DNA of 34,303 nucleotides from positions 1 through 34,303 of the forward strand of contig JAAYNQ010000025.1 of assembly GCA_012520725.1 (NCBI GenBank), in the 5' to 3' direction. Numbering within the stretch: position 1 is the stretch's first letter; every line of letters begins with the position of its first letter. This DNA comes from Syntrophomonadaceae bacterium (GTDB taxonomy: Bacteria > Bacillota > Syntrophomonadia > Syntrophomonadales > Syntrophomonadaceae). Below, piece by piece: positions 1,575-8,459 of this stretch. The notes under the pieces were generated by a model, which worked only from the letters and a program-made list of their open reading frames with translations, was not told the origin of the DNA and did not search any database. The translations under genes were made by a program, and so were the position numbers.

Positions 1575-2783
1575 ATGAAATATTTGCTTATACTGGCCGA
1601 TGGACTGGCTGATTATAAAATAGCAGAACTGGGCGGCAAGACCCCCTTGGAATACGCTCAAACACCTAATATGGATTTTTTGGCCCGCACTTCGATTATA
1701 GGAAAGGCCAGGACCATTCCGGAAGGATTCCCCCCGGGGAGCGATGTTGCCAATTTAGCGGTAATGGGTTACAATCCGGAAATTTATTATACCGGTCGTT
1801 CCCCCCTGGAGGCAGTGAGTATGGGTATCGAACTGGGAGATAATGATCTGGCCATACGCTGCAATCTGGTCACCCTATCAGATCCTGAAGATTATAGCCG
1901 GAAAACCATGCTGGATTATAGCTCGGGAGAGATATCTTCAGCTGAATCGAAAGAATTGATAAAAGCCCTGCAAAATGAACTGGGAGGGCAGGAGATAAGT
2001 TTTCACCCCGGTATAAGTTACCGGCATCTCTTGGTATGGAAAAACGCCCGGGGACGAAAGGTCAATCTTACTCCTCCCCACGATATTAGTGAAAAGGTAG
2101 TAGGGGAATACCTTCCCACCGGTGCCGATAGTGCTGTCTTAATGGATTTAATGTTGAAGAGTTACGATATCCTAAAGGATCATCCCATTAATAATAAACG
2201 TCGAGCTGCAGGCCAGAATCCAGCCACTTCAGCCTGGTTCTGGGGAGAAGGAAACAAGCCGGCCCTGGATAGCTTTGAAAAACTTTATGGCTTAAAAGGC
2301 TCAGTAGTAGCAGCAGTAGATCTGGTCAAAGGTTTAGGAATCAGCGCGGGATTGAAATCGGTAGAAGTCCCGGGAGCCACTGGAGCCATCGAAACCAACT
2401 TTGCCGGTAAAGCCAGGGCGGCTCTGGATGAATTAAAGCAGGGTCAGGATTTTGTATATGTACATATTGAATCCCCCGATGAGTCAGGGCACCAGGGTAG
2501 TTTGAAACAAAAATTATGGAGTATTGAGCAGATCGACCGGGAAGTGGTGGGATTGTTGGTTAAAGAGCTAGACCAATTCCAGGACCTGCGAGTGATGATA
2601 TTGCCGGATCACCCTACCCCTTTGTCTATCAGAACCCACAGCAGTGAACCGGTTCCCTTCATGATCTTTGACAAAAACCATCCGTTGAATGATAGTATAG
2701 GCATATATAGTGAGCAAGCCGCTGATAAAGGAATCTTTTTCCCTGAAGGTTATAAGTTGATGGAATTCTTTATCAAGGGTTAA
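1575..2783 (+). CDS. ApgM-like phosphomutase / proposed homoserine kinase (alkaline phosphatase fold)
   Basis: A 402-residue member of the archaeal-type cofactor-independent phosphoglycerate mutase family. The N-terminal metal-binding motif (LILADGLAD, Asp9) and the GSDVAN motif (Ser56, the expected phosphorylated nucleophile) are present. C-terminal metal ligands are in SPDESGH and PDHPTPLSIRTH. Two family functions are possible. One is 2,3-bisphosphoglycerate-independent phosphoglycerate mutase (ApgM) in glycolysis. The other is the subfamily proposed as a non-orthologous homoserine kinase in bacteria lacking ThrB. The gene is convergent with threonine synthase, whose substrate is O-phosphohomoserine, which favours the kinase role; I infer this from context only. 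The ATG start follows GGAGCTGAAGAAGA at a rather long spacing. No terminator was seen except the paired palindromes further downstream. Confidence 0.82.
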   Translation: MKYLLILADGLADYKIAELGGKTPLEYAQTPNMDFLARTSIIGKARTIPEGFPPGSDVANLAVMGYNPEIYYTGRSPLEAVSMGIELGDNDLAIRCNLVTLSDPEDYSRKTMLDYSSGEISSAESKELIKALQNELGGQEISFHPGISYRHLLVWKNARGRKVNLTPPHDISEKVVGEYLPTGADSAVLMDLMLKSYDILKDHPINNKRRAAGQNPATSAWFWGEGNKPALDSFEKLYGLKGSVVAAVDLVKGLGISAGLKSVEVPGATGAIETNFAGKARAALDELKQGQDFVYVHIESPDESGHQGSLKQKLWSIEQIDREVVGLLVKELDQFQDLRVMILPDHPTPLSIRTHSSEPVPFMIFDKNHPLNDSIGIYSEQAADKGIFFPEGYKLMEFFIKG

Positions 2784-2847
2784 TTGATATTGGAACCATC
2801 TGGATGGTGGGATAATTAGTCTGCTTCTATACGATTAGATAATAGGC

Positions 2848-2929
2848 GGGGCGAGCACAGCTCGCCCCTACAGATCTCGACGATATGCCTCAGCAGGTCC
2901 AGGCTGGCGAGCACAGCTCGCCCCTACAG
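2848..2929. repeat. Two copies of a palindromic GC-rich repeat between convergent genes
   Basis: The core GGCGAGCACAGCTCGCC, followed by CCTACAG, occurs twice. The copy at 2848-2873 forms a perfect 9-bp stem with an ACA loop. The copy at 2906-2929 forms a 7-bp stem with the same loop. The copies are direct repeats about 56 bp apart in the gap between two convergent genes. No T-run follows either hairpin, so they are REP-like repeats rather than textbook terminators, though they may still stop or stabilise converging transcripts. Confidence 0.75.
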
Positions 2930-2964
2930 GTTGCCCCGCGGTATAATGCCCCAATACACGGTAT

Positions 2965-4467
2965 TTACTCCAAATTGAGAAATTGGGAAACGGTATTTTG
3001 CATATCCTCTACCTGACAGATGGTTTTATGTAGTATCGGCCGGTTTTCCAGACCTCTTATTGCTGCAGGCATCCTTACTCCCGTGAATTCCTCCAACCGG
3101 TATAATAATTCAAACTCGTTACCGCCAGCCATCATCTCCGGTGGCAATACAGCCTGGGCTACACTGCTGCCAAATTTAAAGGGACTGGCAGTGGAGGCAA
3201 TAACACTAAGGGTATGGTCTCCGGTAGACTTAAGGTATTTTTCATAAACATTAACTGCCACCGCAGTATGGGTATCAATCAGGTAATGATCCTCCTGCCA
3301 GGTTTTGCGGATAGTGGCAATAGTTTCTTCATCTGAGCAGTAGTCGGACCAGAAATAATCGACTACCTGTTGGTAAACTGCCGGACCTACATCATAATTG
3401 CCCCTGCTCCTTAATTCTTCCATCCAAGCCTTAACTTTGCCGGCATCATGATCGGTAATTTCAAACAATAAACGCTCCAGGTTGGATGAGATCAATATAT
3501 CCATGGAAGGGGAAATGGTTTTCTCAAAGGGTCGATTGCGATCATATATCCCCTTTTTGATAAAGTCGGTTAAGACATTATTAGAATTGGCTGCACATAT
3601 CAACTTCCCTACCGGTAATCCCATTTGGCCGGCATAATAAGCGGCCAGAATGTTGCCAAAATTCCCGGTAGGAACTACAATATTAATCTTATCGCCGGGT
3701 TTTATGCTTCCTCCCTGACGCAGATCCAAGTAGGCAGAAATATAGTAAACGATTTGAGGTAAGAGTCGCCCCCAATTGATGGAGTTAGCCGAGGATAATC
3801 GCATTTGTTTCTGTTGGAGAAGCTGATTATAATCCTCCTGACTGAAAATACTCTTAACCCCAGTCTGGGCATCGTCAAAATTCCCCCGGACTCCGGCTAC
3901 ATAAACATTATTGCCTTCCTGTATCATCATCTGCCGTTTTTGCACCTCACTTACCCCTTGTTCAGGGTAAAACACGATGATCCTGGTCCCAGGGACATCA
4001 CTGAAGCCTTCCAGGGCAGCCTTGCCGGTATCTCCCGAAGTTGCCACCAAGATAACTATCTCACTGCTTTCACCGGTTTTATTCATACTGGTACTCATTA
4101 AATGGGGCAGTATCTGCAAAGCCATATCTTTAAAGGCGCAAGTCGGCCCATGCCATAGTTCCAATATATACTTATTGTCCCCCAATTTTACCAGGGGTGC
4201 TATTCTCTCATCATTAAAATTCTTGCTGTTGTAAGCTCCCTCTACACATTGTTTAATTTCGGATTCGGTAAAATCAAGCAGGTAACAAGCCAGTATATGC
4301 CTGGCTCTTTCCTGGTAGTTCCATCCCTCCATGACAGAAAAGATATCTTCTGTTAATCTGGGTATGTATTCGGGTACGAATAAGCCTCCATCTGGAGCTA
4401 TTCCCTTTATAATAGCTTCGGCGGCGCTGATTCCCGAAGCCTGACCCCGGCTGCTGATATAATCCAA
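2965..4467 (-). CDS. thrC: Threonine synthase
   Basis: PLP-dependent enzyme that converts O-phospho-L-homoserine to threonine and phosphate. The product is 500 residues, matching the long ThrC type with the N-terminal domain beginning SSRGQ. The Schiff-base lysine is Lys113 in GPTCAFKDMA. The phosphate-binding region follows (VATSGDTGKAAL), and a glycine-rich PLP phosphate site is at PTGNFGN. The start is a TTG codon preceded at 7 bp by GAGGAGG; no ATG nearby has a comparable site. The gene faces the ApgM-like gene, which could supply its substrate. The 209-bp divergent gap upstream (4468-4676) is AT-rich with alternating TA tracts. I looked there for a T-box leader and found no clear one. 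Confidence 0.95.
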   Translation of the reverse strand: MDYISSRGQASGISAAEAIIKGIAPDGGLFVPEYIPRLTEDIFSVMEGWNYQERARHILACYLLDFTESEIKQCVEGAYNSKNFNDERIAPLVKLGDNKYILELWHGPTCAFKDMALQILPHLMSTSMNKTGESSEIVILVATSGDTGKAALEGFSDVPGTRIIVFYPEQGVSEVQKRQMMIQEGNNVYVAGVRGNFDDAQTGVKSIFSQEDYNQLLQQKQMRLSSANSINWGRLLPQIVYYISAYLDLRQGGSIKPGDKINIVVPTGNFGNILAAYYAGQMGLPVGKLICAANSNNVLTDFIKKGIYDRNRPFEKTISPSMDILISSNLERLLFEITDHDAGKVKAWMEELRSRGNYDVGPAVYQQVVDYFWSDYCSDEETIATIRKTWQEDHYLIDTHTAVAVNVYEKYLKSTGDHTLSVIASTASPFKFGSSVAQAVLPPEMMAGGNEFELLYRLEEFTGVRMPAAIRGLENRPILHKTICQVEDMQNTVSQFLNLE

Positions 4468-4676: not shown

Positions 4677-5261
4677 TTGTTACAATTTATAATGCTTATA
4701 GTTGCGGTTATCCTGGGAAAACTACTCTGGGATTTTCTTAATGATTACCGGCGAAAAATGCAGGAGACAGGAAGCTATCCCAGCCCTAAAAAACGGCGCC
4801 CAGGGAATGGGGGAGTGATTGACCTCAGCAATGCCTGGATAAACATGGACGATTTACCATACCGCAAACGGGATAACCTGCTATCAGGAAAAGACCTGGT
4901 ACTATTTGATTTGGTAGCCAAAGGGTTGGACCATAGTATTTACACTCCTTTTCCTCGAGTAAATTTGGAAGACCTGTTTACTGTTGTCTCGGATGTAGAA
5001 AATCCCAGCGAATATTTTAATCGCATAAAAAACCGCTATGTTGATATATTGATTTGCGAGCGAGATGGATTACGGCCAGTCTTGATCATAATCGGTGAAT
5101 CCAACCGGGAAGTACGTAAGAAACAGCAATTGCTGGAAGATCGGTTTATTCGCACTGCTGCTGAAGCTGCGGGTTTGAAATACCTTCCCCTGAACCTAAA
5201 CAGTCCTCCTGACCCTGAAGAACTACGCCAATTGTTTAGGAATTCAGGTTTAAACTTATAA
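4677..5261 (+). CDS. Membrane-anchored DUF2726 domain protein
   Basis: A 194-residue protein with one hydrophobic N-terminal segment (about residues 2-19), then a basic linker and a DUF2726 domain (about 60-190). The family resembles endonuclease-like folds and normally carries an Asp followed by an ELD-type acidic motif. Here the first Asp is kept (RYVDILICE) but the second motif reads VLIIIGES, with the acidic residues gone. The domain is therefore probably not an active nuclease, or it uses other residues. Its function is unknown. The start is a TTG 6 bp after AGGAGGT; the next ATG (codon 6) would lose part of the membrane segment. It is divergent from thrC and followed by an inverted repeat. 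Confidence 0.75.
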   Translation: MLQFIMLIVAVILGKLLWDFLNDYRRKMQETGSYPSPKKRRPGNGGVIDLSNAWINMDDLPYRKRDNLLSGKDLVLFDLVAKGLDHSIYTPFPRVNLEDLFTVVSDVENPSEYFNRIKNRYVDILICERDGLRPVLIIIGESNREVRKKQQLLEDRFIRTAAEAAGLKYLPLNLNSPPDPEELRQLFRNSGLNL

Positions 5262-6276: not shown

Positions 6277-6531
6277 TTACAATTTTTTCTTGGTCAAAGC
6301 GCTCTTAACACTAACATGCTCCAGGCTGCCCAGCTTTCCGGTCAAAGCCCCAATTTGGTCAGTGGTGCCATTGATAATGATCGAGATTATAGCGATCTGC
6401 TTTTCGCGATAGGGAACTCCCATTCTGCCAATGATTATGCTTTCGTTTTCACTCAGCACCTGATTTACCAATGGTACCATTTCCCGGTCCTCAACCACTA
6501 TACCTATTACTCCCAGCCTTTTTTCCGCCAC
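6277..6531 (-). CDS. TM1266-like putative iron-only hydrogenase system regulator (ACT-like)
   Basis: An 84-residue protein resembling the TM1266 family, small ACT/NikR-C-like ferredoxin-fold proteins found beside [FeFe]-hydrogenase genes and annotated as putative hydrogenase regulators. Characteristic stretches are EKRLGVIGIVVEDRE at the N-terminus, GRMGVPYREKQIAIIS in the middle and GALTGKLGSLEHVSVKSAL at the C-terminus. The frame is open further upstream to 6636. However, the GTG at 6531 has a GGAGAGGGAGG site and yields the exact family length, so I start there. It lies about 200 bp downstream of hydA on the same strand. The ligand and mode of action in this family are not established. Confidence 0.85.
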   Translation of the reverse strand: MAEKRLGVIGIVVEDREMVPLVNQVLSENESIIIGRMGVPYREKQIAIISIIINGTTDQIGALTGKLGSLEHVSVKSALTKKKL

Positions 6532-6734
6532 AACTATGAGCCTCCCTCTCCTTTTCGCCTTCAAAACATCACTTAGGAAGAACAGCCCCATACTGCAAAA
6601 TAATTCATCGATAGCCCTGCTCAGGCCTGCCACCACTCCCCGGAGGCAAGAAGCTCCTAATCCTAAATTATAGCTGCCCCTCCAATTCAGTATTTAACCT
6701 TATTGTCAGGACCAGCTTCTAATCCAAGGTAGTA

Positions 6735-8459
6735 TTAAAGAACCTGTTTATTTTTAGCTGTATAGTGGGTATGCAATAGTTCGTGGGATTTATGCCCTAG
6801 CGGTTCATGCAGGAACTCCTGGTATATGGTCTGAACTTCCGGATTCTCATGAGATTTCCTTATCTGGCATTGGGCATCTTCAACATAAATCTGCTGAATG
6901 CGTTCAACCCTTTTGGCATTGCTCTTGGTTATGGGCTGTCCGCCTCCACCGATACATCCTCCCGGGCAGGCCATTATTTCAATAAAGTGATACGGAGAAC
7001 TCCCAGCCCGGACTTCATCCATCAACTTCCTGGCATTGGACAATCCATTGGCGATAGCTACCTTTACTTTGGTTCCATTTAAATCCACTTCTGCTTCTTT
7101 AATGCCTTGAATACCGCGGGTGACTTCAAAATCGACATTTTCCAGAGTATTACCGGTCACTACTTCGTATACGGTTCTTAAGGCTGCTTCCATAACTCCC
7201 CCACTGGCTCCAAAAATAACTGCTGCCCCAGTGTACTTACCCATCCAGGAATCAAAATTGGAACCTTCCAATTGATTAAAGTCTATCCCACTCATGCGGA
7301 ATAGCCGGCCAATTTCCCGGGTAGTAAGGACCAGATCCACATCCCGGAACCCACTGTCATTCATCTCCGGCCTGCTGCACTCAAATTTCTTGGCCGTGCA
7401 GGGCATAATCGATACCGAGTATATTTGGGCCGGGTCTATATCCATCTTTTCCGCCCAGTAGGTTTTAACCAGAGCCCCAAACATCTGCTGGGGTGATTTA
7501 CAGGTGGATAGATTATCCAGTAAATCAGGATAGAAGGTCTCACAGAAGTTTATCCATCCCGGACTGCATGAAGTAAACATGGGAAGGGTACCGCCTTCCT
7601 TCAGGCGCTTCAGCAGTTCATGGCCTTCCTCCATAATGGTCAAGTCTGCAGTAAAGTTCGTATGCAATACATAATCAAATCCCAGTTGTCGTAATCCGCT
7701 TACAAATACCTCCATAGGCATATCACCGGTAGCCAGACCCACCTCTTCCCCGATAGCAACTCTTACTGCCGGAGCAATCTGGGTGACCACTACTTTATCC
7801 GGATCGGCTATGGCCGCCAGCAGCTTATCTATTTCTTCAACTTCTCCGATGGCTCCTACCGGACAAGCGTGGATACACTGGCCGCACATTACGCAAGGAC
7901 TGTCAATAAGATCCCAGCCCATGGTAGGAACCACCATGGCTTTATGACCTCTTTTTTCCAGTCCCAGGGCATGTACACTCTGAATCACTGAGCAAGCTTC
8001 AACACAACGTCGGCATAATATACATTTATCAGGATCTCTGAATAAAGAGGGGGTAGAATAATCTTTGGGTAAGCCCCGGGTTTTAAGAGTAAAGGGATTA
8101 TCCCTAATAAAGTATTCTTCAGCCAGAGTCTGCAGTTCACAATTCTGGTTTCTTATGCAGTTCAAACAATCCTGCGGGTGATTGGAAAGTATAAGTTCCA
8201 AAATGGTTTTCCTGGCTTCGATCACCTTCGGGGTCCTGGTTTTAACCTCCATTCCTTCCCAGACTGGTGTAACACAGGCAGCCGACAGCAAGCGGTTTCC
8301 TGCCACTTCACACACGCAGACCCGGCAATTGCCCTTTACCGCCTGGTCCGGGTGATTACACAGGGTAGGTATCTTAACGCCTATACTCTCAGCTGCTTTT
8401 AGGATAGTCGAACCTGCAGGAACAGATGTTTTAATTCCGTCAATACTTAGGTTTATCAC
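6735..8459 (-). CDS. hydA: [FeFe]-hydrogenase catalytic subunit HydA (NADH-dependent type)
   Basis: Catalytic subunit of a cytoplasmic trimeric hydrogenase, 574 residues. Cluster ligands can be placed: N-terminal [2Fe-2S] C34, C45, C48 and C62; His-ligated [4Fe-4S] H94, C98, C101 and C107; two ferredoxin-type clusters at 146-156 and 189-199; then the H-cluster domain. The H-cluster motifs are TSCSPGW (296-302), MPCTAKKFE and ACPGGCIGGGGQP. The first motif is normally quoted as TSCCPxW; here the second Cys is Ser299. There is no C-terminal extra [2Fe-2S] domain as in Thermotoga HydA. GTG start with AAAGGAGG 6 bp upstream. It follows hydB by 15 bp and is last in the hydCBA set, passing electrons from NADH (HydB) to protons. 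Confidence 0.95.
   Translation of the reverse strand: MINLSIDGIKTSVPAGSTILKAAESIGVKIPTLCNHPDQAVKGNCRVCVCEVAGNRLLSAACVTPVWEGMEVKTRTPKVIEARKTILELILSNHPQDCLNCIRNQNCELQTLAEEYFIRDNPFTLKTRGLPKDYSTPSLFRDPDKCILCRRCVEACSVIQSVHALGLEKRGHKAMVVPTMGWDLIDSPCVMCGQCIHACPVGAIGEVEEIDKLLAAIADPDKVVVTQIAPAVRVAIGEEVGLATGDMPMEVFVSGLRQLGFDYVLHTNFTADLTIMEEGHELLKRLKEGGTLPMFTSCSPGWINFCETFYPDLLDNLSTCKSPQQMFGALVKTYWAEKMDIDPAQIYSVSIMPCTAKKFECSRPEMNDSGFRDVDLVLTTREIGRLFRMSGIDFNQLEGSNFDSWMGKYTGAAVIFGASGGVMEAALRTVYEVVTGNTLENVDFEVTRGIQGIKEAEVDLNGTKVKVAIANGLSNARKLMDEVRAGSSPYHFIEIMACPGGCIGGGGQPITKSNAKRVERIQQIYVEDAQCQIRKSHENPEVQTIYQEFLHEPLGHKSHELLHTHYTAKNKQVL

Follow-up and report, generated by a model that had tools for sequence, protein, structure and literature searches.

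The stretch of DNA analysed here (hereafter the window) is the entire 34,303-nucleotide contig JAAYNQ010000025.1 (C121) of a Syntrophomonadaceae bacterium and carries a gene, apg, whose product is probably a homoserine phosphotransferase acting beside the conventional homoserine kinase ThrB, a reading to which we give a probability of about 0.6. That the product is an enzyme of the threonine branch rather than a phosphoglycerate mutase (PGM) is very likely.

Apg, a member of the alkaline phosphatase superfamily, would act as a two-metal phosphotransferase and phosphorylate homoserine; the resulting O-phosphohomoserine is what the threonine synthase encoded by the neighbouring gene uses. By analogy with the superfamily, Ser56 would attack a phosphate donor, for which phosphoenolpyruvate (PEP) is the published example, a phosphoserine enzyme would form between two metal ions, and the phosphate would then pass to the hydroxyl group of homoserine. 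Substrate, donor and phosphoenzyme are thus all predicted ones, and the enzyme would provide a second route to O-phosphohomoserine alongside the ATP-dependent ThrB, not a replacement for it.

The apg gene and its product

The apg gene (1575-2783, forward strand, 402 aa) begins with an ATG preceded by AGGAG and is the single gene of the genome that exceeds the cut-off of TIGR02535, the model of the 'proposed homoserine kinase' (514.2 bits, cut-off 446.3). Its product also passes PRK04200, 'cofactor-independent phosphoglycerate mutase' (533.7 bits, cut-off 426), and TIGR00306, apgM (522.2 bits, cut-off 320); NCBIfam, whose models overlap, attaches two names to this one protein. It scores far below the cut-off of PRK04024 (295.8 bits for 489), and Pfam recognizes the PhosphMutase (205.6 bits) and Metalloenzyme (140.8 bits) domains. 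Downstream lies thrC (2965-4467, reverse strand, 500 aa), which starts with a TTG, is the sole thrC over cut-off in the genome and encodes a threonine synthase of the long type (TIGR00260, 259.3 bits, cut-off 167.1) with a Thr_synth_N domain (PF14821, 74.2 bits) followed by PF00291 and PF24857. The two genes are convergent, tail to tail, with a gap of 181 bp, and therefore do not form one operon.

The nucleophile and two-metal set of the superfamily is complete in Apg (D9, S56, D302, H306, D345, H346 and H355). Six of these seven residues are found in all 59 TIGR02535-type rows of our alignment and D9 in 58 of them, with one gap; the putative nucleophile Ser56 (motif GSDVANL, codon at 1740-1742, forward strand) is a serine in 59/59. 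The comparison group consisted of four divergent ApgM-like proteins from relatives (G063, G101, G103 and G110), 25-32% identical to Apg, and of the structures 2zkt and 3kd8 from the Protein Data Bank (PDB); it was aligned with 51 TIGR02535-type rows and again with 59. The use of these six PGM-like rows as true mutases is weakened by a Glu at the position of H306 in three of them and a Thr at that of S56 in one.

Several residues shared by the PGM-like rows are replaced in the TIGR02535-type rows. The motif DRRAGR (6/6) gives way mostly to DYS[SA]GE, which reads DYSSGE in Apg (codons 114-119, 1914-1931, forward strand); at positions 115, 116 and 119 the arginines found in 6/6 PGM-like rows correspond to Tyr (56/59), Ser (56/59) and Glu (55/59). 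Likewise, Leu-x-Arg (6/6; Arg226 in 2zkt numbering) becomes Trp221-x-Trp223 (59/59), Lys (6/6; Lys302 in 2zkt numbering) becomes Glu299 (58/59), and two histidines (6/6 and 5/6) become Tyr149 and Asn60, respectively (58/59 each). The lost positive charge would suit an ammonium-bearing substrate better than phosphoglycerate. An AlphaFold model of Apg, built with 55 aligned sequences, has a mean predicted local distance difference test (pLDDT) score of 96.3, and its best fold match in the PDB is the archaeal PGM 2zkt (template modelling (TM) score 0.81, 30% identity).

The initial annotation, which had described an ApgM-like gene facing thrC with the full alkaline-phosphatase-type residue set, is borne out on each of these points. 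Its assignment of the gene to the type proposed as homoserine kinases is upheld by the TIGR02535 score and by the departures from the PGM-like residues. The tree that it had suggested sets the six PGM-like rows apart, on one side of a branch with a support of 100 in the Shimodaira-Hasegawa-like approximate likelihood ratio test (SH-aLRT), in a quick tree that raised long-branch warnings, has no bootstrap and leaves out three over-cut-off members (G039, G042 and G060).

The homoserine step in the genome and its relatives

The genome of the window (2.64 Mb, 212 contigs, 99.99% complete, 3.98% contamination) also carries thrB (263.4 bits, cut-off 168.25), located on contig C208 in a same-strand run that comprises a gene for an ACT-domain protein, hom (single copy), thrB and lysC. 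It also carries the phosphoglycerate mutase gene gpmI (704.4 bits, cut-off 330.65). Neither gpmA nor cobD passes its cut-off in this genome, the best cobD match reaching 221.9 bits for 290.55. As the genome carries both thrB and gpmI, neither simple story holds for apg: it does not fill in for a missing ThrB and is not required as a phosphoglycerate mutase. The thrB gene does not come from a contaminant contig, since thrB, hom and lysC of C208 share 86-92% identity with their counterparts in the closest genus-mate (G003), a level that apg matches (87%); contamination is also disfavoured by a hom-thrB-lysC cluster located 3.8-11.6 kb from apg, on the same side, in six loci of the family (G007, G013, G022, G034, G038 and G048).

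The distribution of these genes was determined by scanning 121 genomes (this one and 120 relatives) for TIGR02535, thrB, cobD, thrC and gpmI; 88 of them, with a completeness of 90% or more and a contamination of 5% or less, are called good genomes below. Whereas thrB and thrC were counted by cut-off only, two full-length proteins under the cut-off (G076, 436.7 bits; G084, 429.5 bits) were added for TIGR02535, fragments at contig edges were counted as present, which leaves the counts in good genomes unchanged, and the four divergent ApgM-like proteins were scored as absent. Among the 80 good genomes with thrC, 25 carry both genes, 22 TIGR02535 only, 32 thrB only and one neither (Fisher p about 1e-5), so that thrB or TIGR02535 is present in 79/80; if G076 and G084 are taken as absent, the numbers become 24, 21, 33 and 2. 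Six of the eight good genomes without thrC lack both genes, and the two others (G009 and G033), which have both, show beside apg a piece of thrC cut by the contig end. At the level of the phylum (53 good genomes), the counts with thrC are 5 with both, 9 with TIGR02535 only, 32 with thrB only and 1 with neither, and neither gene is found in the 6/6 genomes without thrC. TIGR02535 is present in 28/28 good genomes of the window's family, seven of which lack thrB, and in 7/7 of two sister families, six of which lack thrB.

Since thrB and TIGR02535 are complementary among genomes with thrC and both are mostly gone without it, the profile is the one expected of an enzyme of threonine synthesis that is interchangeable with ThrB. 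It resembles the one published for gut genomes, in which the protein, named ThrB2, was predicted in 300 genomes, of which 278 lack thrB (PMC9026213). Co-occurrence is nevertheless common, as 25 of the 47 thrC-carrying good genomes with TIGR02535 have both genes; therefore, as two-gene genomes such as that of the window indicate, ThrB and TIGR02535 are not simply exclusive. No association is seen with gpmI (47/49 good genomes with TIGR02535 and 35/39 without) or with cobD (14/49 and 14/39, p 0.5).

The gene is maintained where thrB is present. Relative to G003, the ratio of non-synonymous to synonymous substitution rates (dN/dS) is 0.096 for apg, 0.134 for thrB, 0.110 for thrC, 0.079 for hom and 0.074 for lysC, and the dN of apg is below that of thrB in all four genus-mates compared, dS being near saturation in three. 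Purifying selection on apg beside thrB is thus at least as strong as on thrB, and these low values rule out its decay. The state of thrB changes at least 12 times over the 59 rows of the protein tree and, among these rows, no alignment column separates members with thrB from members without it at the 70% level, which excludes a separate subfamily associated with thrB; because of these frequent switches and the lack of such a column, the function of Apg is probably the same with or without ThrB.

Gene neighbourhood also links apg to threonine synthesis. In 32 of the 34 loci fetched from the window's family, thrC, whole or cut by a contig end, lies convergent downstream of apg, and in the two others (L113 and L166) no more than 400 bp separate apg from the contig end; this pairing exceeds chance. 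Outside the family, several arrangements are found: hom-thrB-apg with 4 bp between thrB and apg (L150), ACT-hom-apg-thrC-thrB (L152), hom-apg-thrC in Clostridium sp. N3C (L181), hom-apg-lysC (L228 and L240), apg-hom-thrB-lysC (L180), ACT-hom-thrB-lysC-apg in Sporotomaculum syntrophicum (L196) and in L198, and thrC-apg (L155, L189, L195, L242 and L247). Among the named loci, i.e. the best 80 of 590 matches, many with shortened flanks, 12 have hom, thrC or lysC as a neighbour on the same strand no more than 300 bp away, and 20 have any of thrC, thrB, hom and lysC within the flank. Without four loci that have the window's arrangement (L170-L173), 16/76 remain for about 2.2 expected at random placement, under a rough null model in which the inheritance of gene order is not taken into account. 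Pfam was also searched with 30 neighbouring proteins of 18 non-family loci, including one locus around a divergent ApgM-like gene, and no partner recurred beyond two loci.

Globally, the tie to threonine synthesis put forward in the initial annotation is supported by the profile and by the neighbourhoods, but the 'non-orthologous' enzyme replacing ThrB that it envisaged is not, as thrB lies in the hom/lysC operon of the same genome and apg is an addition to it. Of the two findings that it had named together as contrary to its proposal, a genuine thrB is indeed present, whereas the absence of any other phosphoglycerate mutase is contradicted by gpmI. Its observation stands, and its interpretation is partly supported.

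Possible alternative roles of Apg

Several facts weigh against a homoserine phosphotransferase. The PRK04200 model that Apg passes bears a phosphoglycerate mutase name, thrB accompanies apg in the window's genome as it does in the 25/80 genomes counted above, and 60 of the 80 named loci, many with short flanks, show none of thrC, thrB, hom and lysC. Furthermore, two good genomes with TIGR02535 (G074 and G094; loci L146 and L149) have neither gpmI (none at E 1e-60) nor gpmA over cut-off; the one other strong Metalloenzyme (PF01676) match in each is presumably a phosphopentomutase, judging from its signature, and a mutase role for the TIGR02535 gene is conceivable there. Lastly, BT2402 of Bacteroides thetaiotaomicron, a member of the same family whose mutants need threonine in minimal medium, failed to rescue an Escherichia coli thrB mutant, according to PMC7311316, which relies in part on data and communications that it cites.

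This failure would also be explained if Apg had another job in the aspartate/threonine branch, non-kinase or regulatory, that is used with ThrB and that accounts for the threonine need of BT2402 mutants. The clustering of apg with thrB in several lineages (L150, L152, L180, L196 and L198) and its presence throughout the window's family regardless of thrB agree with such a job. We consider it rather unlikely, since 22 of the 80 good genomes with thrC have the apg family and no thrB while only one (two if the sub-cut-off proteins are taken as absent) lacks both, which is the pattern of interchangeable enzymes, and since no alignment column tells members with thrB from those without.

A cofactor-independent phosphoglycerate mutase (ApgM) lying next to thrC by chance is quite improbable. 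PRK04200 and TIGR00306 are passed, the nearest solved structures are archaeal PGMs, and G074 and G094 lack a recognized mutase gene, but gpmI is found in the window's genome and in nearly all good genomes with TIGR02535, the PRK04024 score is far under its cut-off, the DRRAGR motif, Arg and Lys of the four divergent proteins and of 2zkt and 3kd8 are replaced by DYSSGE, Trp223 and Glu299, and the six PGM-like rows branch apart in the tree, within the limits given above. Only four good genomes are without both TIGR02535 and a gpmI over cut-off, and it is these four that encode the divergent proteins, a distribution as expected for true mutases. With gpmI present and the residues of the PGM group lost, the mutase was rejected as the principal function of Apg. 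Still more improbable is a role as CbiU, an L-threonine kinase serving the cobalamin side chain, which has been suggested for Dehre_1608, a TIGR02535 protein encoded inside a corrinoid operon of Dehalobacter (PMC4285132): no cobD passes the cut-off in the window's genome, for which this role was rejected, TIGR02535 is independent of cobD across the 88 good genomes, and matches to three cobD seeds lie near apg in only 1/80 named loci (L234) and 0/60 loci of relatives.

The homoserine phosphotransferase acting beside ThrB thus accounts best for the pattern, and a bolder form of it can tentatively be considered. In these anaerobes, the core enzyme for phosphorylating homoserine might be the ApgM-like one and not ThrB; it would use a donor other than ATP (e.g. 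PEP, pyrophosphate or a phosphoglycerate) and be kept throughout the family while the ATP-dependent ThrB comes and goes. If so, BT2402 would have failed to complement E. coli for want of a donor or metal, and two homoserine kinases with different energy costs would operate in many genomes.

Other features and comparison with known systems

Upstream of apg, on the same strand, splB (315-1433) encodes a spore photoproduct lyase (TIGR04070, 482.2 bits) outside the proposed function; 12 of the 34 fetched family loci also have it upstream. Past thrC, a DUF2726 gene (4677-5261, forward strand; PF10881, 37.9 bits) is a conserved neighbour, downstream in 27 of these 34 loci. The apg-thrC gap contains twice (2850-2873 and 2906-2929) a 24-base repeat, GGCGAGCACAGCTCGCCCCTACAG, with a short palindrome in each copy, which looks like a small interspersed repeat. 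Neither the window nor any of five related stretches contains a riboswitch or T-box above the Rfam gathering score, a scan of seven operon loci gave only tRNAs and one intron piece, and the promoter and terminator scans did no better than shuffles. At 6277-8459, the window encodes a TM1266-type hydrogenase regulator and an NADH-dependent [FeFe] hydrogenase of group A6 (NF040763, 881.9 bits), in keeping with an H2-forming anaerobe.

Two observations concern the relatives. G071, the good genome with thrC over cut-off and neither thrB nor TIGR02535, possibly has yet another homoserine kinase. In addition, two loci carry apparent circular permutants of 523-534 aa (L263, 1111-2715, and L264, 1063-2634, both on the forward strand), in which a GpmI-type C-terminal half precedes the N-terminal half, the second half of the L264 protein being judged by eye only; each directly follows an open reading frame resembling an ABC transporter ATPase, and a protein of this permuted kind, below cut-off, occurs in G110. 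A term search of the open literature found no paper on such permutants.

The family and the homoserine kinase idea are already published. The TIGRFAM curators proposed that TIGR02535 proteins take a phosphate from a donor such as PEP and pass it to homoserine (PMC7311316). In the GapMind survey of the same paper, homoserine kinase was among the two commonest low-confidence steps (29/148 prototrophs), and 15 of these 29 have a TIGR02535 protein, a proposed stand-in that is still a candidate. Among the papers listed in a search of the open-access literature, none proves homoserine phosphorylation by any member. The replacement of the Arg and Lys of the PGM group by Tyr, Ser, Glu and Trp suggests a simple rule for separating mis-named 'phosphoglycerate mutases' from real ones and, together with the hom-apg-thrC loci without adjacent thrB, makes the homoserine kinase question directly testable.

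Apg resembles ThrB2 proteins such as BT2402 in exceeding the TIGR02535 cut-off, in its complete metal set, as in the two zinc sites of BT2402, which are conserved relative to a phosphoglycerate mutase structure while its calcium site is not (PMC9765024), and in belonging to a family linked to hom, thrC or lysC in many genomes. It differs in being convergent with thrC and not in an operon, and in its genomic setting, since the genome of BT2402 has no recognized thrB (PMC7311316) whereas that of the window has one; the usual argument for the function of TIGR02535 proteins, a genome without conventional homoserine kinase, does not apply here. With CbiU (Dehre_1608), Apg shares the TIGR02535 domain (PMC4285132), but the window's genome is devoid of cobD over cut-off and no corrinoid gene is among the named neighbours. 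The archaeal ApgM enzymes (2zkt, 3kd8/3idd; PRK04024) have the same fold, catalytic residues and domain layout, yet Apg is only 24-30% identical to them in structure alignments, lies below the PRK04024 cut-off, carries DYSSGE, Trp223 and Glu299 instead of DRRAGR, Arg226 and Lys302, and coexists with gpmI. A third homoserine kinase, related to shikimate kinases, is known from Desulfovibrio (PMC5764234). Finally, ThrB, the homoserine kinase of the GHMP type (TIGR00191), belongs to a family unrelated to Apg and is encoded by the same genome, but would catalyse the same reaction as that proposed for Apg and shows a complementary occurrence among phylum-level relatives.

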